From an uncultured Gellertiella sp. (GTDB lineage Bacteria; Pseudomonadota; Alphaproteobacteria; Rhizobiales; Rhizobiaceae), in assembly GCF_963457605.1 (NCBI RefSeq), contig NZ_OY735139.1, forward strand, positions 310,001 to 374,000: DNA of 64,000 nucleotides, read 5' to 3'. Each line of letters opens with the position of its first letter. Position 1 is the first letter of the stretch. The translations under genes were made by a program, and so were the position numbers. The notes beneath the pieces are model-generated. The model made no database searches, was not told where the DNA came from, and saw only the letters and a program-made list of their open reading frames with translations. Positions 38,840 through 49,467 of this stretch are shown one piece after another.

Positions 38840-39200
38840 GGTGGGTCACGCTGACCTGGACGTAATCCAGAATGCCGCGGATCGGCGCGGAGGGCTTGCG
38901 CACGGTGATCCTTGCCTCGCGGATCGCCGGGAATTTGGCGCAGAGCGCCCGGGCGATATCGAGCGCCAGCGCCTCGATCAGCTGGCGGCGGGTGCCGGTG
39001 ACGATCTGTTCCATCAGTTCGAAGGCCTCGCCATAGTGGACGGTACCCTCGATACTGTCCGTTTCCAGCGCCGCGCCTGCCTCGACCTCGAGCGCGGCAT
39101 CGACGAAGAAGCGCTGGCCCAGCACCTCCTCTTCCTTCAGCACCCCGTGCCGGGCGAAAAACGCGCAGTTCTGCAATTCGATGCGATAGGTACTGGTCAT
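38832..39200 (-). CDS. folB: Dihydroneopterin aldolase
   Basis: 122 residues. It converts dihydroneopterin to 6-hydroxymethyl-dihydropterin. The start IELQNCAFFARHGVLKEEEVLGQRFFVD is diagnostic. The ATG overlaps the folP stop (ATGA). Confidence 0.95.
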   Translation of the reverse strand: MTSTYRIELQNCAFFARHGVLKEEEVLGQRFFVDAALEVEAGAALETDSIEGTVHYGEAFELMEQIVTGTRRQLIEALALDIARALCAKFPAIREARITVRKPSAPIRGILDYVQVSVTHRA

Positions 39201-40069
39201 GCGTGCAGATCCGGTTTCAGTGTCAGTCGGGCTTCGGCATCGAGCATAGCATTGGCGACCGCCAGTGCGTCCCTGTTGATTGCGACATTGTGGACCCGGA
39301 AAATCGCGGCCCCCTGCTGGCGCAGATAGACCGTGGTCGCCGCCGTCCCCGCATCGCGGCGATCGGCCATCTCCTCGCCGGTCATCGTGCCGATGAAGCG
39401 CTTGCGCGAGGTGCCGGCAATCAGCGGCAGGCCGAACCCGTGCAGTTCCGCAAAACGCGCCATCAGCTCCATGTTTTCGGCAGGGTCCTTGGCAAAGCCG
39501 AAGCCCGGATCGAGCACGACGGCGCTGCGGGCAACACCCGCCGCATCGGCAATATCAAGCGAGCGACCGAGAAACAGGATCTGGTCGGCGATCACGTCGG
39601 ACAGCTTGTCGCGCCCGCGCCCGGTATGCATCAGGCAGAGCCCTGCCCCGGTTTCAGCCGCAACCTTTGCAATCTCCGGCTCGCGCTGCGCGCCATGCAC
39701 ATCGTTGATCACATGGGCACCGGCGGCGACCGCCAGCCGGGCGGTGGAGGCCCGGTAGGTGTCGATGGACATCAGCGCATCGGTGCGCGCGGCAAGCGCT
39801 TCGATCACCGGCAGCACCCGGTCCTGTTCTTCCGCCGCGCTGATCCCGACGGCACCGGGCCTGGTCGATTCGCCGCCGATATCGAGGATATCGGCACCCC
39901 CAGCCACGCAGGCCAGCGCATGGTCGACAGCGGCGGCGGTACTCTTCAGCAGCCCGCCATCGGAAAACGAATCCGGCGTGACATTGATGATGGCCATCAA
40001 TGCGCCGTCCTTCAGGTCCAGCGCCCGGCCATGCGCCAACTGCCAGATCCTTTGCGCCGTCACGACCAC
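39197..40069 (-). CDS. folP: Dihydropteroate synthase
   Basis: 290 residues from GTG 40069. It condenses the folK product with p-aminobenzoate (sulfonamide target). INVTPDSFSDGG, DIGGESTRPGA and SKRKRFIGTMTG-like loop motifs (here GTSRKRFIG) identify it. The start is set by AAGGAGG, 7 bases upstream; an ATG 10 codons earlier is possible but lacks such a site. First gene of the fol operon. Confidence 0.95.
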   Translation of the reverse strand: MVVTAQRIWQLAHGRALDLKDGALMAIINVTPDSFSDGGLLKSTAAAVDHALACVAGGADILDIGGESTRPGAVGISAAEEQDRVLPVIEALAARTDALMSIDTYRASTARLAVAAGAHVINDVHGAQREPEIAKVAAETGAGLCLMHTGRGRDKLSDVIADQILFLGRSLDIADAAGVARSAVVLDPGFGFAKDPAENMELMARFAELHGFGLPLIAGTSRKRFIGTMTGEEMADRRDAGTAATTVYLRQQGAAIFRVHNVAINRDALAVANAMLDAEARLTLKPDLHA

Positions 40070-40168
40070 CGCCCCGCCTCCTTCATGGCATTTTGCCAAA
40101 CTCTGTCTTGCACTTGGTCAGCCTATGCCGCAAGGTCCGCCCGAGTTCAACCACCCGGACTTTCAAGA

Positions 40169-40813
40169 ATGAATTTTGCCCCGTGGCGTCCCTCTGTTTT
40201 TGTCATCCGGACGCTGATTGCCCTGCCGATGCTCGTTACGGCAACCGCCGCCCCGGCGGAGATGATCGTCTACAAGACAATCACCTATTTCTCCATTGGC
40301 GGCACGACCATCGCGGAACTCGATCACGAACTCCAGACCCGCGGCCCCGAGGTCAAGACGACAGGCACCCGGCATCCCGGCGCAACCCGGATCAAGTTTG
40401 GCGGCGATGTCACCTATCTGCAGAAGGGCGGAACCTGCCGGGTGGCAAAGGCTCGGGTCACCGTCAGCACCCATATCATGCTGCCGCGCTGGAAAAACCG
40501 CCGCAGTGCCAAGCCCGGTCTCGCCCTGCTCTGGGACACGCTGTCCGGCGATATCCGGCGCCATGAGGAGCGGCACGCCGAAATCGCCCGCACCCACGGG
40601 CGCGAGATGGAACAGGCGCTCGCGCATTTGCCAGCCGAATCGACCTGCCATGCAATGCAGGAGGCCGTTTCAAGCCTGTCCGCCATGCTCATCCTGTCGC
40701 ATGATCGTGATCAGGCGCGCTTTGATCGTGTTGAGGCGGTCAATTTCGAAAGCCGGATGATTCGCCTGCTGAGGGGCCGGATTTCCGCCAAACCGGTTGA
40801 AAAACATCTGTGA
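40169..40813 (+). CDS. DUF922 secreted metallopeptidase-like protein
   Basis: 214 residues with a signal peptide (TLIALPMLVTATAAPAE). The central DUF922 segment contains RRHEERHAEIARTHGREM, an HExxH-type zinc site (HEERH), and WDTLSGDI. Three cysteines are seen (GTCRV, ESTCHAM). DUF922 proteins are predicted zinc-dependent proteases; activity is not shown. Divergent from folP across about 100 bases. Confidence 0.75.
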   Translation: MNFAPWRPSVFVIRTLIALPMLVTATAAPAEMIVYKTITYFSIGGTTIAELDHELQTRGPEVKTTGTRHPGATRIKFGGDVTYLQKGGTCRVAKARVTVSTHIMLPRWKNRRSAKPGLALLWDTLSGDIRRHEERHAEIARTHGREMEQALAHLPAESTCHAMQEAVSSLSAMLILSHDRDQARFDRVEAVNFESRMIRLLRGRISAKPVEKHL

Positions 40814-40929
40814 TGTCTCGGGCCGCCCTTGCGGGGACTGCATCGCCAGGCTTGCGCGGGGCTTGCCGCAAGTCTGCGGAATGATCGGTCATTTCTGATG
40901 ATTTAAGAATCGAGAATTATCTATTATAA

Positions 40930-41073
40930 AAATAATCATGTTTCCTGGTTGGTTTATCCGGTTCCCGCGTTCTCCTGGTGCGTCCCAGAGCCGCAGGCGT
41001 TCTCCTCCCTCGCCCTGCAGGCGATGCACCCATCTGGCCTCGCCGGTCCCAGACCGTTGCGAGGCTTTTTTTT
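40930..41073 (+). ncRNA. Candidate trans-acting small RNA with anti-Shine-Dalgarno loops
   Basis: No protein-coding sense is seen here, but three stem-loops follow one another. Hairpin 1 (about 40959-40992) and hairpin 2 (about 40993-41020; stem GCAGGCG / CGCCCTGC with one bulge) each carry the 10-mer GCGTTCTCCT in the loop region, which is complementary to ribosome binding sites. The third is a strong terminator (7-bp stem plus inner 4-bp stem, 8 T). An A/T-rich stretch (TATTATAAAAATAAT, 40922-40936) may hold the -10. Rhizobial alpha-r14 and alpha-r15 (AbcR) RNAs show anti-SD loops of this kind; family membership is not tested. The 5' end is a guess. Confidence 0.6.
41037..41073 (+). terminator. 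Strong intrinsic terminator of the candidate small RNA
   Basis: GCCTCGC (41037-41043) pairs with GCGAGGC (41059-41065), inner CGGT/ACCG, followed by 8 T (41066-41073). It lies 224 bases after the nearest plus-strand stop codon, too far for a simple gene terminator. Confidence 0.85.
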
Positions 41074-41143
41074 GACCGTCACGCCGTTCTACCAGCGGAA
41101 CTCGACAGCCAGATGACGGAATATGCGGGGAGACTCCTGACAA

Positions 41144-41464
41144 TCAACCCTGGCGTTCCGGAACATGCACCACCAGACCGTCGAGCTCATCACTGATCTT
41201 GATCTGGCACGACAGGCGCGAGGTCGGGCGCACGTCGAAGGCAAAGTCCAGCATGTCCTCTTCCATCGCGGCAGGCGCACCGACCTTTGCGGTCCAGGCA
41301 TCGTCCACGTAGACGTGGCAGGTGGCGCAGGCGCAGGCACCGCCACATTCGGCTTCAATCCCGGGCACGGAATTGCGCACGGCGTTTTCCATGACGGTGG
41401 AGCCATTGGCTGCATCAAGTTCAAGGCGCGTGCCGTCGAAGGCGACGAGGGTCAGTTTGGTCAT
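41144..41464 (-). CDS. Adrenodoxin-type [2Fe-2S] ferredoxin
   Basis: 106 residues. The cluster ligands are in [15 protein letters not shown] (C-x5-C-x2-C) with a distal Cys in RLSCQIKIS. The ferredoxin passes electrons to oxygenases or to Fe-S assembly. It is a single gene; it ends 70 bases from the candidate RNA terminator (convergent). Confidence 0.92.
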
Positions 41465-41654: not shown

Positions 41655-42023
41655 CTATCGGCACAGTTTCAGGATAAAGTTTTCCGCCGCGACAATGGCA
41701 GACCCGACCGACACGATCAGGCCGGCATCCCGTGGGTCTGCCTCGAGCCGGGTCGTGATGGCGACGATATCCCGGGCACCGACGGCAGCGGCGGCTCCCT
41801 TCAGGCGATGGGCGATGGCGCTTGCCTGGGTCTCATTGGCATGGGCGAGTTCGGCAAGGCAGGAACGGGCCTGCCGGGCAAAGATTTGCAAGACTTCGGT
41901 TTCAAGCGCCTTGTCGCCCATGGTCTGTTTGGCGAGATGATCGAGATCGATGGGGCGGGTCGCAGAAGGGCACGGGCCGGAGTGATTGTCGGGGGCCTCG
42001 AACGCAATATTCAACGCTGCCAT
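41655..42023 (-). CDS. Hpt-domain phosphotransfer protein
   Basis: 122 residues. The helix carrying the phospho-acceptor is ASAIAHRLKGAAAAVGARDI (His in AHRLKGAA); the preceding helix is LETEVLQIFARQARSCLAEL. The 25-residue N-terminus is not conserved. Such free Hpt proteins relay phosphate between hybrid kinases and regulators; partner unknown. AAGGA lies about 8 bases before the ATG. Divergent from gpr. Confidence 0.82.
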   Translation of the reverse strand: MAALNIAFEAPDNHSGPCPSATRPIDLDHLAKQTMGDKALETEVLQIFARQARSCLAELAHANETQASAIAHRLKGAAAAVGARDIVAITTRLEADPRDAGLIVSVGSAIVAAENFILKLCR

Positions 42024-42462
42024 GTCAACATGTCCTTGTTCTTATTTTTGACGCTTCGGCAATATGTGCCGGGTTGAGACGCAATCCCGTTAAAAACCGG
42101 CGCTATCAAGGCAGAAACTGAATTTATGGTTAACAGTGGTTAAAGGTCGCTGCCGAAAGGGTTTATATCGAAGGGTATGTGTTAAAACATGTTAACAAAG
42201 CGAGCGAATGGCCCCTGCCCGCGACCCCGCTTGATTGTATCAGCGCCCCTTCTGTGGCACTAAAGCATTGTAAAGCTGAATAAAGGCGACGATGCCGCCC
42301 TCCTGCTTCCCAACAGCTGATGACATCGAGCGGCGATGGCATGAAAGGCCGGGGTGGAGAGAATGGCGGATCAGGTATGGAGTGCCTTTCTGGAAACGCG
42401 ATGTGCGCCTGGCTGCCCGCGAATTCCGAGAGTTGCTCCCGAAGAGATACGAGGCAGGATGC
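42024..42462. other. Intergenic region between the Hpt gene and gpr
   Basis: 439 bases between divergent genes. It holds two TTAA-N6-TTAA pairs (42130-42143 and 42182-42195), one base short of the CtrA site TTAA-N7-TTAA. The gpr reading frame extends 57 codons into it (to 42292), but without a good ribosome binding site there. No other structure was seen. Confidence 0.45.
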
Positions 42463-45400
42463 ATGGCAAACGGTAGAAGCGGCGACCCGCAGGCTGACAA
42501 GGCTTACCAGGCCCTCGAGGATGCCCTGCAGGGTAAATTTGACGAAAAAGGCCAGCAGCGCGCTGTGGCTCGCTCTGACGGCCGGGAGGCAAATGTGGCG
42601 GATAACATGAAGCAACGTCCCAAGACGGCAGCCGAGCAGGCGCAGCAGCGCCGGGCCGCCCAGGAAGGCGGACGCCCGCAAATGCCGGAAGGTCCCAAGG
42701 GCCAGTCCCAGCCGCCCGCCAATGACGGTCGCCGGTCCTCCTCCGCCATGCTGAAAAATCTCGAGGGCGGCTCGATGAATTCGGCGCTGCGCAATGCGGC
42801 GGTGATGTCGCTGCTGTGGGCCGTGGCCGTTGTCGGCCTGGCGCAATTGCTGTTTTCCTCGCAGATCTGGCAGATCAGCGCGGCCTCGGATGTATTCGGC
42901 CTGCCCCGCCTGATCCTGCTGATCATCGCGATCATCCTGCCGGTCATGCTGTTCTTTGCCTATTCGATCATGATTGCCCGCGCCCAGGACATGCGCAACG
43001 CCACCCGGTCGATGGCGGAGCTTGCGCTGCGTCTGGTGGAGCCGGAAGCCATGGCCTCCGACCGCATCATGAATGTCGGCCAGGCCGTGCGCCGCGAAGT
43101 GACCGCGATGAACGAGGGCATCGAGCGGACCATCGCACGCGCCACCGAACTGGAGGCGCTCGTGCATTCCGAAGTCAATGCGCTGGAGCGCAGCTATACG
43201 GACAACGAGATGCGGGTGCGCTCGCTGGTCCAGGAACTCGGCTCCGAACGCGAGGCGATCACCAATCATGTCGAGCGCATCCGCTCCTCGATTGTCGGCG
43301 CGAATGAGCAGCTGAAGGAAGAAATGTCGCTCGCCACGGAAGAAATCTCCGTGCGGCTGGCGACATCGGGCGAAGCCTTCGCCCAGATGATCGACACCCG
43401 CGCTGCGGTGCTGCTCGAAAAATCCGATACCGCAGCCCAGAACATCAGCTCGCTTCTGACCGGCAAGACGACGGCGCTGGTCGATGCGCTCGATGCCTCG
43501 GGCTTTGCCCTGGCCCGGGAATTCGACACCCGCCTCGATTCGATCTCCACCACCATTACCCATCGTGGCCAGGAAATCCTCGGCCAGTTCGAGACCCGCG
43601 CCTCGACGCTCGACGCCAATACGGAACGGCTGAATGCCGCGCTCAACGAACGCGCCAACCAGTTGAACGAGACCCTGATTGCCCGCACCCGTGAAATCAA
43701 CGAGAGCCTGACCTCGGGCCAGACCAGCATCGCCGGCACGCTCGACGACGTGTTGATGAAACTCAATACCAATCTCGACGAGAAGAGCTCGACCTTCCGC
43801 CAGAACCTGCAATTGACCGCCGACGAAGCGGTGATGGATCTCGACATCCGGTCCGGCTTCTTCGTCGAACGGATGCAGGCCACCACCAGCCAGCTGTCAA
43901 CAGTTTTCGACGAGCGCTTTGCGGAATTCTCGGAAGCCTTCGAACAGCGCTCCGGTTCGCTGGACAACAAGCTGATGGAAAGCCTGGCACGGATCAACGA
44001 AACCCTGTCGAGCGGGTCTGAATCCCTCGACGGCATCCTGTCGACCAGCATCGACCGGCTCGGCACCTCGCTCAACGACCAGTCCTTCGCGCTGGCCGCA
44101 GCGCTTGGCACCGGGCAGGAGGTGATCGAGAATTCCATCGACCTGCGGGTGCGCGAAATCACCGGCACGCTGGAAAGCCGCACCGGCGAAATCACCTCGG
44201 TGCTGAACGAGACCGCTTACAGTATCAATTCCAATCTTGCCGAGCGGACGGCGGAAATCGCCTCGACCCTGGGCGCCCGGGCAGATGAATTCACCACCGC
44301 GCTGAACAGCAAGACCTCGGAAATCACCTCGACCCTGACGGAGAAGACCTCGGAACTCACCTCGGAGCTCGATTTCCGCACCATGGAACTGACCGCAGCG
44401 CTCGGCGCACGTACCGAGGAAATCACCTCGGCGCTGAGCAGCAAGACGGCGGAAATGACCTCCGCGCTGACCGACAAGACCTCGGTACTCACCACCGAAC
44501 TCGACTACCGCACCATGGAACTGACCGCAGCACTTGGTGCCCGCACCGAGGAAATCACCTCTGCCGTCAGCACCAGTACCGAAGAGATGAGCCAGACCCT
44601 GTCGGCCCGCATGCAGGAGATGAATGCATCGCTGGAAAGCCGCACCGGCGAGTTCAAGGCTGTGATGGATCACCGCTCCGGCGAGATCACCTCGGCGCTG
44701 ACCACCCGCACCGCCGAAATCGCCGGCGCCCTGCACCAGGCCGAAAACCGGATCGGCGCGACCATGGCCGAGCGCAGCGACACGCTGATTGCCACCATCT
44801 CGACCAATTCCGCTGCGCTGACCGAGGCAATGACCGCGATGGAATCGAATTTGGGCACGGTGCTGGCCAGCCGCAGCGACAGCCTGATCTCGGCAGTTGC
44901 CAGCGCAACGGCAGAGCTTGCCGAGACCATCGACGCCCGCGTCACCGGTCTCACCGATGTCTTTGCCAGCGGCAATAGCCGTCTTGCCGACACGATTTCC
45001 GGCCAGACCGACATTCTCGGCACGATGGCGGATACCACGCAGGCCGCGATTGCCGATGCGCTTGGCCGTCGCACCGACGATATCGCGCTGGTGCTGGAAC
45101 AGGGCCGCAGCCGTATCGACGCCACCCTGGCCGAACGCGTGGATCAGATGACCGGGGCTCTGACCACCAGCAGCACCGAGATCATCGGCAGCATCGACCG
45201 CAAGGTGAACGATCTCTCGGACGCGCTCGTCGAGGGTTCGCTGACCTTCGGCCTGCAGCTCGAAACCCATGTGGCGACCGCCATCGACAGCGTAGCCGAC
45301 GCCGAAACCCGCCTCACCTCCTCGCTGGAAGAACGGGCGGCAGCGCTGCGCCGGACCTATGAGGACAATCAGGCCCTCATCCAGGACGTCCTCGACGGAT

Positions 45401-48400
45401 CCGCCAGCCGGCTCGAGAATACCATTTCCAGCGGCACGCGCCGCATCGAGGACGCGGTATCGAGCAGCGTCAACCAGCTCGACGGCTCGCTGTCGACCAG
45501 TGCGCTGCAGATCGAGGAATCCCTGAATTCCGGCATCAGCCGCCTGACGGAAACCCTGATCGGCACCTCCTCGGAACTGGCGATTACCGTGGAAAGCGGC
45601 GTCGAGCAGATGCAGACCTCGCTGCAGGCGAGCGCCAGGGACATCGACACGGCATTGCAATCGGGGACCGGGGATATCCAGTCGTCGCTGCTCGCGGGCA
45701 ATGCCCAATTGCGCGATGCGCTGGTGACGGGTACAGGCGACCTCCGGGGTGCCTTGCTCAACAGTGCCGCCGACATCAGGACTTCGCTGACAGAAGCGCA
45801 GACGCAGCTCGACGCATCGCTTGGCCTGGGGACAGCGCAATTGCAGACCGCCCTCACCGGGGCGCAGGCGCAGCTCGACATGGCGCTCGGCCAGGGTACG
45901 GCGCAATTGCAGACCGCGCTGACAGAAGGTTACGACAATATCAGCGGCAGCATCGCCACCGGCTACGAGCGGATCGACCGCGCGCTGTCGACCACGCATG
46001 CGCAGTTCCGCGAGACGCTGGAGGCTGGCAACGACAAGCTCGATCTGACGCTGAAGGATGCGCGCAGCCAGATGGAGAGCGTGCTGATCGAGCAGGCCAC
46101 CACCATCGGCGCAACGGTTGCGACCGGCGCAAGCATGCTGGAAATGTCGCTGGAGGATCAGGGCACGGCCCTGCGCCAGGCCATCGAACTTGCCACCACC
46201 GACATGGACAGCCGCCTGCGGGGCACCGCCGGCAAGATCGCCGGCCAGCTCAGCAGCGCCGCACTCGACGTCAACAATGCCGCCGCCACCGCGACCTCGC
46301 AGGTCGAACAGAGCGTCGACCTGCTGGCCTCCCGCCTGGTCGATACCGGCAACCGGGTTGAACTTGGCCTCAACGCCATCGAACTGAGGATCCGCGAAGG
46401 TGTCACGGGTGTCGCCACCCAGATGGAAACCGCCGGACGGGTGTTCGGCGACACGCTGTCGGAACGCATCCAGGATATCGACCGGGTCTCGACCGAAGCC
46501 ACGGGCCGTCTTGCCGATGTGCTCGACAGCCGCAGTTCGCAGGTGGCAAACACCATGGAGGCCGGCACCTCGCAGATCGACCAGCGCCTGTCGCAGCTCG
46601 ATGGTGCACTCGCCACCGGCCTCGACAATGTCAACCGGACCATCGAGGAAAAGGCCGGGGTGCTCGCCGTGACCCTGCGCTCGGCGGTCACCGACGCCGC
46701 AGGCAATCTCGAGGCGGAGGTCGCCCGCACCACCCGGGTCCTCGCCCAGGCGAGCGATGGCTTCATCGACAAGGTCGGCGCAAAGAACCTCGAATTCACC
46801 CAGTCGGTCGAAGACCGCTCCGACCGGATCGTGGCACGGGTGTCGGAAACCCAGAACCGGCTGGCCGCCCAGGCGGCCGCCGTCGCCCAGACCTTCTCCG
46901 TCGCCGGCAATTCGATCGTCAGCAAGGTTGCCGAGGCCGAAGGTCTCGTCTCCAGCCAGGTTCAGGCCATCACCGAAGTGCTGGCCGGGGCTGAAAGGAC
47001 GCTTGGAGCGCAGGGCGAGCAGATCCGCACCAGCCTCAGCGAAACCGGCGACGCGATCCGGAGCAGCATGGCGGAAACCGGAGATGCCCTGCGTACCAGC
47101 CTCAGCACCACCAGCGGTGACATTACCAGTACCCTTTCCGACGTGGAACGGGTGCTCCAGAACCGCAACGAAGCGATCCGCACCAGCCTTGAGGAACGGG
47201 CCCGCGAAATCGATGGCACCCTAAGCCAGGTCGACCGGGCACTGGAAGCCCGTGGCAATGCCGTTCGCTCGGCGCTGGAAGAGCGCACCCGCGACATCAA
47301 CTCGATGCTGTCGGACCGGTCCATCGAGCTTAGCAGCATCATCGAGGACAAGCTTCTGCCGGTGATCGAGACCTATGCGGCCACGGGCCGCGAGGCCGCC
47401 GATCATATCTCCATGGCCGCACGCACCAGCGCCGACCGTCTGCGCGCCGAAAATGCCGCGCTGATCGATGCCATGGTGCAGCGCACCGAGGCGACCGCCC
47501 AAACCATCAACCAGCTGGAAGCCACGCTGTCGACCAGTGTCAACAGCCTGATCCACCGGCTGGCGGAGAGCAATTCCGGCCTTGCCGACACCGTCGGTCG
47601 CGCCAGCGAGGAGCTTGGCACGGTCAACCAGACCATGGATGCGACCGCCAGCCGCTTCAGCGAGACGGCGGAACGGGCTTCCGAGCGCGTCACCGCCTCC
47701 ACCCGCTTCCTCGAAGGCAAGGTCGACCGGCTGTCGAGCATTTCCGCCGATACGCTGGCGCAGGTCTCCAGCATCGTCACCCGCTTCTCCGACCATTCCA
47801 AGGTGCTCGGTCAGGCCTCGGAACTGCTGGGGGCTGCCCAGTCCAATCTCGCCAATACGCTGGAAGACCGCGAAGAGGCGCTGCGCCAGCTCGCCGTTGG
47901 CCTCGTCACCCGCTCCGACGAAATTTCCGGGACCATGCGGTCGCTGGGAGAAATGGTCGATGGCGCCTTCGACCGGGCGGAACAGCGCTCCAGCCAGCTG
48001 TCGGGCAACCTGCGCCAGGGCTTCCAGTCTTCCTTCGCCGATGTCGGGCGTGTTCTCACGGAAACCGAAAAACGCACCGCCCAGGTGGCCGAAAGCCTGC
48101 GCGACACCATGGCCAAGGCCGGTCAGGACGCCAGCCAGTCGCTGGAGACCTCGTTCTCCGATGTTGGCCGCCTGCTGAGCGAGACCGAGAAACGCTCGGC
48201 AACCGCCGCCGAAAGCCTGCGCAATACGGTGTCGGGTGCCGCCCAGAGCGCCACCAGGATGCTGGATGGTGCCTTTGGCGAGGCGGAAAAACGTGCCCTT
48301 GGCCTGTCCGAGCGGATGCTGTCGAGCCTCAACAGCTCGCTGACCGAACTCGACCAGGTGATCGACACGACCGCGAAAAAGTCCGGTTCGGCTGCCGATG

Positions 48401-49467
48401 CGATGCGCGACGTGCTGCGTCACGCCGTCGAGGACGCGGTTGCACGGTTCGATGGCGCGACCGAGGAAATCCGCCGCTCCGCCACCGAGATCCGCAAGGA
48501 ACTCGACATGACCCGCAGCGAACTGAAGCGCGGTGCCTTCGACCTGCCGGAAGAGGCAAAGGAAAGCGCTGCCGCCATGCGCCGCGCGGTCGCCGAGCAG
48601 ATCAAGGCGCTGCAGGACATTTCCCAGATTGTCGGCAAGTCGTCGCGGCAGTTCGAGGTGTCCGAGCAGGCCGTCCGCAGCATGGCCAATGCCGAACCTG
48701 CCAGCCGCCCCGCCGCCCCTGCTGCCCGCGAGACCGACACGGTGCTGCGTGGCAGCCTGCCCATCGAGCGCACGCCGCGTGCCGCCGAGCCAGCCCGCGA
48801 CATCCTGCGCGAGCCGCCGCGTGCGGCCCGCACCGAAGACCGCAGCGAACCCGTTGTCGAACAGCGGCTGGCCGCAAGGCCGGAACCGCAGCTCGAGGCG
48901 CGGGTACAGAACCGTGCCGACAGAAGTGTCGAGCAGCCCCGCCCGCCTGCCCCCGCAGACGGCAGGGGTGAAACCGGCGGCTGGATCAGCGATCTCCTGC
49001 GTGGCGCGTCGCGCGAAGACGACATCACCCCCGCCCCGGTCGCGCCCCGCACCGCCGTTGCCACCACCCGCCCGGTTCTCGAGGCACCGCAGCCCCGTCA
49101 GGCCGATCCGCGCAATCCGCGCCACATGGTGGAATCGCTGAATTCCCTGTCGGTCGATATCGCCCGCGCCATCGATCATGATGCCTCGGTCGACCTGTGG
49201 CGGCGCTACCAGCGCGGCGAACGGGATGTCTTCACCCGCCGCCTCTACACGCTGAAGGGCCAGCAGACCTTCGACGACATCAAGCGCAAATACGACCGTG
49301 AACCGGAATTCCGTACCGCCGTCGACCGCTACATCGCCGATTTCGAGAAACTGCTGGGAGACGTCGCCCGCACCGACCGCGACAAGTCGATCACCCAGTC
49401 CTACCTGACCTCCGATACCGGCAAGGTCTATACGATGCTCGCCCATGCCGCCGGTCGCTTCAGCTGA
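42463..49467 (+). CDS. gpr: Growth Pole Ring protein (GPR/RgsE) homologue, giant coiled-coil membrane protein
   Basis: 2334 residues from ATG 42463 (GAGGCAGGA just upstream). N-terminal cytoplasmic tail (QADKAYQALEDALQGKFD), two membrane helices at about 112-132 and 150-173, then some 1900 residues of alpha-helical, Ala/Ser/Thr/Glu-rich apolipoprotein-like repeats, a proline-rich linker (about 2080-2210) and a conserved C-terminal domain (RHMVESLNSLSVDIARAIDHD to YTMLAHAAGRF). This matches the 2115-residue GPR of Agrobacterium tumefaciens and RgsE of Sinorhizobium meliloti, which form a ring at the growing pole and organise polar peptidoglycan synthesis. Long antisense open frames here are codon-bias shadows. 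Confidence 0.85.
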   Translation: MANGRSGDPQADKAYQALEDALQGKFDEKGQQRAVARSDGREANVADNMKQRPKTAAEQAQQRRAAQEGGRPQMPEGPKGQSQPPANDGRRSSSAMLKNLEGGSMNSALRNAAVMSLLWAVAVVGLAQLLFSSQIWQISAASDVFGLPRLILLIIAIILPVMLFFAYSIMIARAQDMRNATRSMAELALRLVEPEAMASDRIMNVGQAVRREVTAMNEGIERTIARATELEALVHSEVNALERSYTDNEMRVRSLVQELGSEREAITNHVERIRSSIVGANEQLKEEMSLATEEISVRLATSGEAFAQMIDTRAAVLLEKSDTAAQNISSLLTGKTTALVDALDASGFALAREFDTRLDSISTTITHRGQEILGQFETRASTLDANTERLNAALNERANQLNETLIARTREINESLTSGQTSIAGTLDDVLMKLNTNLDEKSSTFRQNLQLTADEAVMDLDIRSGFFVERMQATTSQLSTVFDERFAEFSEAFEQRSGSLDNKLMESLARINETLSSGSESLDGILSTSIDRLGTSLNDQSFALAAALGTGQEVIENSIDLRVREITGTLESRTGEITSVLNETAYSINSNLAERTAEIASTLGARADEFTTALNSKTSEITSTLTEKTSELTSELDFRTMELTAALGARTEEITSALSSKTAEMTSALTDKTSVLTTELDYRTMELTAALGARTEEITSAVSTSTEEMSQTLSARMQEMNASLESRTGEFKAVMDHRSGEITSALTTRTAEIAGALHQAENRIGATMAERSDTLIATISTNSAALTEAMTAMESNLGTVLASRSDSLISAVASATAELAETIDARVTGLTDVFASGNSRLADTISGQTDILGTMADTTQAAIADALGRRTDDIALVLEQGRSRIDATLAERVDQMTGALTTSSTEIIGSIDRKVNDLSDALVEGSLTFGLQLETHVATAIDSVADAETRLTSSLEERAAALRRTYEDNQALIQDVLDGSASRLENTISSGTRRIEDAVSSSVNQLDGSLSTSALQIEESLNSGISRLTETLIGTSSELAITVESGVEQMQTSLQASARDIDTALQSGTGDIQSSLLAGNAQLRDALVTGTGDLRGALLNSAADIRTSLTEAQTQLDASLGLGTAQLQTALTGAQAQLDMALGQGTAQLQTALTEGYDNISGSIATGYERIDRALSTTHAQFRETLEAGNDKLDLTLKDARSQMESVLIEQATTIGATVATGASMLEMSLEDQGTALRQAIELATTDMDSRLRGTAGKIAGQLSSAALDVNNAAATATSQVEQSVDLLASRLVDTGNRVELGLNAIELRIREGVTGVATQMETAGRVFGDTLSERIQDIDRVSTEATGRLADVLDSRSSQVANTMEAGTSQIDQRLSQLDGALATGLDNVNRTIEEKAGVLAVTLRSAVTDAAGNLEAEVARTTRVLAQASDGFIDKVGAKNLEFTQSVEDRSDRIVARVSETQNRLAAQAAAVAQTFSVAGNSIVSKVAEAEGLVSSQVQAITEVLAGAERTLGAQGEQIRTSLSETGDAIRSSMAETGDALRTSLSTTSGDITSTLSDVERVLQNRNEAIRTSLEERAREIDGTLSQVDRALEARGNAVRSALEERTRDINSMLSDRSIELSSIIEDKLLPVIETYAATGREAADHISMAARTSADRLRAENAALIDAMVQRTEATAQTINQLEATLSTSVNSLIHRLAESNSGLADTVGRASEELGTVNQTMDATASRFSETAERASERVTASTRFLEGKVDRLSSISADTLAQVSSIVTRFSDHSKVLGQASELLGAAQSNLANTLEDREEALRQLAVGLVTRSDEISGTMRSLGEMVDGAFDRAEQRSSQLSGNLRQGFQSSFADVGRVLTETEKRTAQVAESLRDTMAKAGQDASQSLETSFSDVGRLLSETEKRSATAAESLRNTVSGAAQSATRMLDGAFGEAEKRALGLSERMLSSLNSSLTELDQVIDTTAKKSGSAADAMRDVLRHAVEDAVARFDGATEEIRRSATEIRKELDMTRSELKRGAFDLPEEAKESAAAMRRAVAEQIKALQDISQIVGKSSRQFEVSEQAVRSMANAEPASRPAAPAARETDTVLRGSLPIERTPRAAEPARDILREPPRAARTEDRSEPVVEQRLAARPEPQLEARVQNRADRSVEQPRPPAPADGRGETGGWISDLLRGASREDDITPAPVAPRTAVATTRPVLEAPQPRQADPRNPRHMVESLNSLSVDIARAIDHDASVDLWRRYQRGERDVFTRRLYTLKGQQTFDDIKRKYDREPEFRTAVDRYIADFEKLLGDVARTDRDKSITQSYLTSDTGKVYTMLAHAAGRFS
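44371..44570 (+). repeat. Near-identical 132-bp repeat inside gpr
   Basis: The block encoding RTMELTAALGARTEEITSA occurs twice, 132 bases (44 codons) apart (ATG-Met codons at 44383 and 44515). Since 44 = 4 x 11, this fits the 11-residue helical repeat of apolipoprotein-like proteins. Confidence 0.85.

Follow-up and report, generated by a model that had tools for sequence, protein, structure and literature searches.

An Atu_C7 small RNA between a DUF922 gene and a convergent ferredoxin gene carries two conserved strips complementary to the Shine-Dalgarno sequence

The window, i.e. the whole 64 kb stretch of DNA that was analysed, contains a short intergenic region at 40930-41073, for which the initial annotation had proposed an expressed regulatory RNA exposing an anti-Shine-Dalgarno motif. 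The neighbouring genes were assigned with Pfam, and the three minus-strand products were scanned minus the first codon:

39197-40096, minus strand, pterin-binding enzyme
40169-40810, plus strand, DUF922
41144-41461, minus strand, 2Fe-2S ferredoxin domain (Fer2)
41655-42020, minus strand, Hpt domain

Farther downstream (42292-49467, plus strand) lies an open frame of 2391 amino acids, which appears by eye to encode a long repetitive coiled-coil-like sequence.

The window was searched against 4227 Rfam families, and Atu_C7 (RF02501, "Rhizobiales sRNA Atu_C7") was the sole family over its cut-off. The match covers 40921-41070 on the plus strand and the full model (positions 1-157 of 157), with 49.9 bits against a gathering score of 45 and an E value of 2.5e-08. 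Because this score lies over the cut-off, the candidate belongs to a catalogued small RNA family, and by score and place the stretch is a member of Atu_C7. One match was found in the source organism's own genome. Scores among the relatives range from 43.2 to 73.9 bits, compared with 49.9 in the window. The window copy resembles the family in its layout of stem, loop and terminator and in the full-length covariance match; it differs in having its own 5' leader and an exact duplication of a 10-mer. The name Atu_C7 reportedly goes back to an sRNA, C7, described by Wilms et al. in 2012 in their RNA-seq study of Agrobacterium. In open papers no functional study of Atu_C7 was found under the names searched, and a differently named study is possible; no named sRNA of S. 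meliloti could be matched to it. RcsR1 was considered as the Sinorhizobium name and was rejected, as PMC7143759 has RcsR1 transcribed from the trpL attenuator position.

Named loci were collected by protein alignment of DUF922, independently of the RNA sequence, and the best 80 of 314 confirmed loci were taken, a sample that is therefore biased toward near kin and does not include the Agrobacterium founder locus. The organisms named include Sinorhizobium, Ensifer, Rhizobium, Shinella, Neorhizobium, Pararhizobium, Mycoplana, Ciceribacter and Peteryoungia. The convergent ferredoxin gene is present in 77 of the best 80, and the RNA lies between it and DUF922 in all 77 loci having both. When 20 of the named loci were scanned with the Rfam model, 19 were over the cut-off; the twentieth (L081) reached 49.2 bits with R1, a covariance model built here from 14 sequences, the window included. 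Four loci (L001, L002, L005 and L008) were omitted from the R1 search because they duplicate the window, L018, L015 and L016. Matches of more than 100 nt were found in 89 of 91 sources (75 of 77 after removal of the model's own 14 sequences), and these 89 were collapsed to 81 distinct cores, on which all counts out of 81 below are based. The two misses were L028, where the contig ends just after DUF922, and L042 (Sinorhizobium americanum). In the latter, DUF922 is present, and no ferredoxin match, core motif or sRNA was found after it; its state appears to be a loss or a rearrangement.

Whole genomes were also searched; in each genome this search scores only a restricted set of first-look candidates, so that absences are weak evidence. 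Under this limit, Atu_C7 was found in 11 of 61 genomes (own included), nine of them over the cut-off, and, among 297 genomes sampled from the order, in five (own included), all of the window's family. R1 matched 14 of the 61 genomes, 11 strongly and three weakly and out of place. The weak matches (G006, G011 and G049, loci L106, L107 and L108; 26-27 bits) were taken as chance, since their loci have no DUF922, ferredoxin, pterin-binding or Hpt protein matches.

The elements within and just upstream of the RNA, all on the plus strand, are as follows:

40878-40903, plus strand, conserved upstream element GGAATGATCGGTCATTTCTGATGATT, a candidate activator site (matrix from 8 seed loci)
40921-41070, plus strand, Atu_C7 small RNA (Rfam match)
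40922-40929, plus strand, TATTATAA, a -10-like, TATA-like sequence (by eye; same place in genus-mates)
40967-40976, plus strand, 5' strip GCGTTCTCCT, the first repeat copy, with the conserved core TCTCC (GTTCTCCTGG in 66/81, TCTCC in 79/81)
40977-40984, plus strand, 5' arm of the outer stem, pairing with 41023-41030 (fold, covariation)
40990-40999, plus strand, 5' arm of the inner stem (folds, covariation)
40997-41006, plus strand, second repeat copy GCGTTCTCCT, from the end of the inner stem into the loop (exact search)
41000-41010, plus strand, apical loop TTCTCCTCCCT, complementary to the Shine-Dalgarno sequence (fold; CCTCCC in 80/81)
41011-41030, plus strand, 3' arms of the inner and outer stems (folds, covariation)
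41037-41073, plus strand, intrinsic terminator with a tail of 8 T (fold; seven tested pairs standard in 81/81)

In the window fold, the RNA consists of one long bulged hairpin and the terminator. The stretch 40966-41073 has a fold z of -4.47, and none of 200 dinucleotide shuffles was equally stable; for the longer 40930-41077 the value is -2.82. The inner hairpin by itself is unremarkable (z -1.54, with 15 of 200 shuffles equally stable). The independent terminator with 8 T described by the initial annotation is present, with a hairpin at 41037-41065 followed by the T run at 41066-41073 (z -6.17, no equally stable shuffle among 200). A simple terminator scan listed none, probably because the stem is interrupted. 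The three hairpins first described were not confirmed as such: before the 5' strip the window has a weak one of three pairs, and its sequence is not conserved in the alignment.

Covariation was examined for 22 stem pairs in an alignment that was not fitted to the structure, and 11 of them were testable. The null was a simple simulation of our own, with sites evolving independently on a tree from the same alignment, and each pair was judged singly, uncorrected for how many were examined. For five of the 11 pairs (columns 25-84, 30-78, 46-68, 48-66 and 97-124), the association was reached by at most 4 of 400 simulations. For example, the pair 48-66 is A-U in 37 sequences, G-C in 32, G-U in six, U-A in three and U-G in one. 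Three further pairs were reached in 11, 16 and 18 of 400 simulations, and the remaining three of the 11 testable pairs (28-80, 44-73 and 45-71) showed no covariation against the tree simulations. This comparative alignment of the 81 homologues was the check proposed at the outset, for compensatory stem changes and conserved loops, and the candidate was not refuted by it.

The lack of coding sense that was noted at first also extends over the 81 homologues for the forward strand. Counted from the 5' strip, the three forward frames contain stops in 47, 22 and 37 of the 81 sequences, and 11 different distances, between 50 and 73 nt, separate the 5' strip from the terminator. There is no conserved reading frame on the forward strand.

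The feature that had first drawn attention is a 10-mer occurring twice. An exact search of both strands of the 64 kb window placed GCGTTCTCCT at 40967-40976 and 40997-41006 and gave no third copy; 0.12 matches would be expected by chance, and two or more copies were seen in 1 of 100 shuffles. The pair is therefore real, as had been claimed. The placement of each copy in a hairpin loop does not hold for the window sequence, where the first copy is unpaired on the 5' side of the main stem and the second spans the end of the inner stem and part of the loop. Among the 81 distinct homologues, the exact double copy occurs in one, the window's own sequence, and a double GTTCTCCT occurs in four, each from the window's genus. 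From these counts, the eye-catching repeat is a genus-level likeness between two different conserved strips.

Each of these strips is conserved in its own right. As RNA, the 5' strip is GUUCUCCUGG in 66 of 81 distinct homologues, and TTCTCCTGG is found in 72 of 81 distinct cores. At the loop place, the CCUCCC core is present in 80 of 81 homologues; in the exception (L011), CCTCCC is located in the 5' strip and the loop carries the variant TCTCCC. In all folds but one (80 of 81; the exception is L077), a hairpin loop holds the C-rich core, L011 being counted with its TCTCCC. The loop has a mean unpaired probability of 0.98 over the 81 folds, and in the window the apical loop UUCUCCUCCCU is free of purines and complementary to AGGAG-type ribosome binding sites. 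For the 5' strip the mean unpaired probability is 0.75 over the 81, and the window's value is 0.97; 35 of the 81 folds leave this strip wholly unpaired, and in 31 it lies partly within a small hairpin loop. The original picture of a loop at this strip therefore fits part of the family, not the window sequence. The anti-Shine-Dalgarno feature, an accessible and conserved complementary strip, is found in the loop; the 5' strip is not as accessible. Taken together, a structured small RNA with a conserved place and Shine-Dalgarno-complementary strips is well supported by Rfam, synteny, folds and covariation. The initial interpretation is thereby borne out in part, expression and regulatory action in this organism being predicted.

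Upstream of the RNA, the matrix matched an element like GAATGACCGGTCATTTCTCGCGATT / GAATGACYGGTNATTTCTCGCGAT in 42 of the 81 loci; with the seeds set aside the figure is 34 of 73, and the threshold is one that 1% of shuffled upstream regions exceed. Many of the loci are close kin, which means that these counts are not independent. The element lies 84-144 nt before the 5' strip in the 42 loci. None of these 42 is from Sinorhizobium, Ensifer or Pararhizobium, whose upstream regions look different by eye. A stricter expression for the element matched 12 of 81 upstream regions, against a mean of 0.56 for shuffled ones. The pattern TNACYGGTNATTTC has one occurrence in the source organism's own genome, and it lies elsewhere; the window site is one position off the pattern and is not matched by it. 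Transcription would probably start near 40935, shortly after the TATA-like sequence.

The hairpins might also be merely the 3' end of the DUF922 mRNA, i.e. a terminator and possibly a processed 3' UTR, in which case there would be neither a regulator nor a promoter of its own here. In the loci compared, the RNA does follow DUF922 on the same strand, and a simple scan passed no promoter (no sigma-70-like site). However, anywhere from 135 to 447 nt separate the DUF922 match from the RNA in the 77 loci, and yet the upstream element is found in 42 of 81; moreover, the loop and the main stem are conserved more than a terminator requires. A mere mRNA end is therefore considered unlikely, and an RNA with its own promoter and terminator is preferred; an sRNA derived from the 3' UTR is conceivable.

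Rfam includes models for alpha-r14 and for AbcR / alpha-r15, the RNAs that had been named as analogues and whose models the initial annotation had suggested searching. Neither was matched in the window among the 4227 families, and the same check yielded Atu_C7 instead; at E values up to 1 the only other hits were MIR2680 and sX13, both far under their cut-offs. According to PMC10746234, alpha-r14 members have three hairpins, each with CCUCCUCCC, and in NfeR1 of Sinorhizobium meliloti the three loops are redundant and ntrB is silenced through pairing at the translation start. An exposed loop sequence complementary to the Shine-Dalgarno sequence is shared by NfeR1 / alpha-r14 and the window RNA; however, the latter has one UCCUCCC loop and one 5' strip, and the three-hairpin layout with CCUCCUCCC is absent. 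For AbcR / alpha-r15, PMC7486931 gives a VtlR/LsrB box upstream (GCAT-N3-TG-N3-T). Membership of the alpha-r14 (NfeR1) or AbcR family would account for the exposed CUCCU/CCUCC strips that these RNAs have in common; against a single C-rich loop instead of three, no CCUCCUCCC, and Atu_C7 as the one family passing, it is hardly credible. The Atu_C7 RNA at most works like alpha-r14, AbcR or sX13.

Among the single-loop RNAs, the likeliest analogue is PmaR (formerly C10) of Agrobacterium, which is likened here by description, having a long stem and a single C-rich loop; it is another gene. According to PMC6234868, this loop is accessible and required for target regulation, and PmaR occurs only in Agrobacterium and a single strain of Rhizobium. 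The same paper reports that its deletion lowers the murB, murI and cheD transcripts and the AmpC protein, which indicates that such an RNA can also raise its targets. The sX13 RNA of Xanthomonas represses through C-rich loops on G-rich motifs near start codons, and Hfq is not needed (PMC3771888). A C-rich loop is common to sX13 and the window RNA, whereas sX13 has three loops, and with the sX13 model, whose cut-off is 50, the window RNA reaches 18.7 bits.

Possible targets were searched in the source organism's own genome. The motif AGGAGAAC followed by ATG after 0-12 nt gave 25 matches, compared with one for the reversed control, and GAGGGAGGA with the same spacing gave four against none; AGGAG is the ordinary Shine-Dalgarno sequence, so this enrichment names no targets. 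Fourteen of the 25 AGGAGAAC matches (13 distinct starts) have a frame of at least 90 amino acids, some of them inside genes. By eye, three of the genes with AGGAGAAC before ATG (L111, L116 and L123) resemble ABC transporter substrate-binding proteins, an AbcR-like kind of target. A 228-aa frame whose first 70 residues are identical is present three times in the genome, on both contigs (L110, L112 and L121, at G000:C1:114309, C1:159785 and C2:1142781), each time with nearly the same leader, and is a repeated element.

The longest complement is CCAGGAGAACGC before homospermidine synthase, with 12 nt against 40967-40978. Among the ten RNA-bearing genomes with this gene, CCAGGAGAAC precedes it in two, the own genome included, and AGGAGAA in three. 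CAGGAG lies within 30 nt before the gene in eight of the ten genomes with the RNA versus one of 11 in which the RNA was not found (leaders L139-L159); the genomes with the RNA are closely related, and in the other set the start codon is unclear for several genes, so this contrast is a weak lead that kinship alone could explain. That the target search gave no firmly conserved target would fit a sponge for another RNA, or strips that are bound by a protein, in place of pairing with the ribosome binding sites of mRNAs, as would the G-poor sequence of the strips and the accessible loop. The rhizobial and agrobacterial analogues NfeR1 and PmaR do act on mRNAs, according to PMC10746234 and PMC6234868, and a sponge or protein-binding role is considered very unlikely.

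The reading that we regard as quite probable is a trans-acting Atu_C7 sRNA with its own promoter and terminator, whose two strips pair with the ribosome binding sites of several mRNAs. The RNA would be transcribed from a predicted promoter of its own, in the gap that separates DUF922 from the convergent ferredoxin gene, and the transcript would be ended by its own terminator. The covarying long hairpin would present the purine-free loop, with the second strip GUUCUCCU just before the stem. Both strips might then pair with purine-rich ribosome binding sites of several mRNAs, and the translation of these mRNAs would be changed, most likely lowered. By analogy with the known RNAs, Atu_C7 may thus regulate several mRNAs, most likely by blocking translation starts; since PmaR raises some of its targets, repression is not to be taken for granted.

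A broader picture, which is offered tentatively, is that Atu_C7 might be a core riboregulator, present in single copy, of the Rhizobium-Sinorhizobium-Shinella branch. It would work through two different strips complementary to the Shine-Dalgarno sequence, and in about half of the loci compared the conserved upstream element would serve to activate it. Polyamine synthesis (homospermidine synthase) would perhaps belong to its regulon, as would ABC transporter binding proteins.

The guess of a regulatory RNA, made without any tools, was sound, and its object was already catalogued. What is added here is that the conserved anatomy is one loop and one 5' strip, not a repeat, and that the place of the RNA between DUF922 and ferredoxin is constant across the Rhizobiaceae loci compared. 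The conserved upstream element points toward a regulator that may be identifiable.
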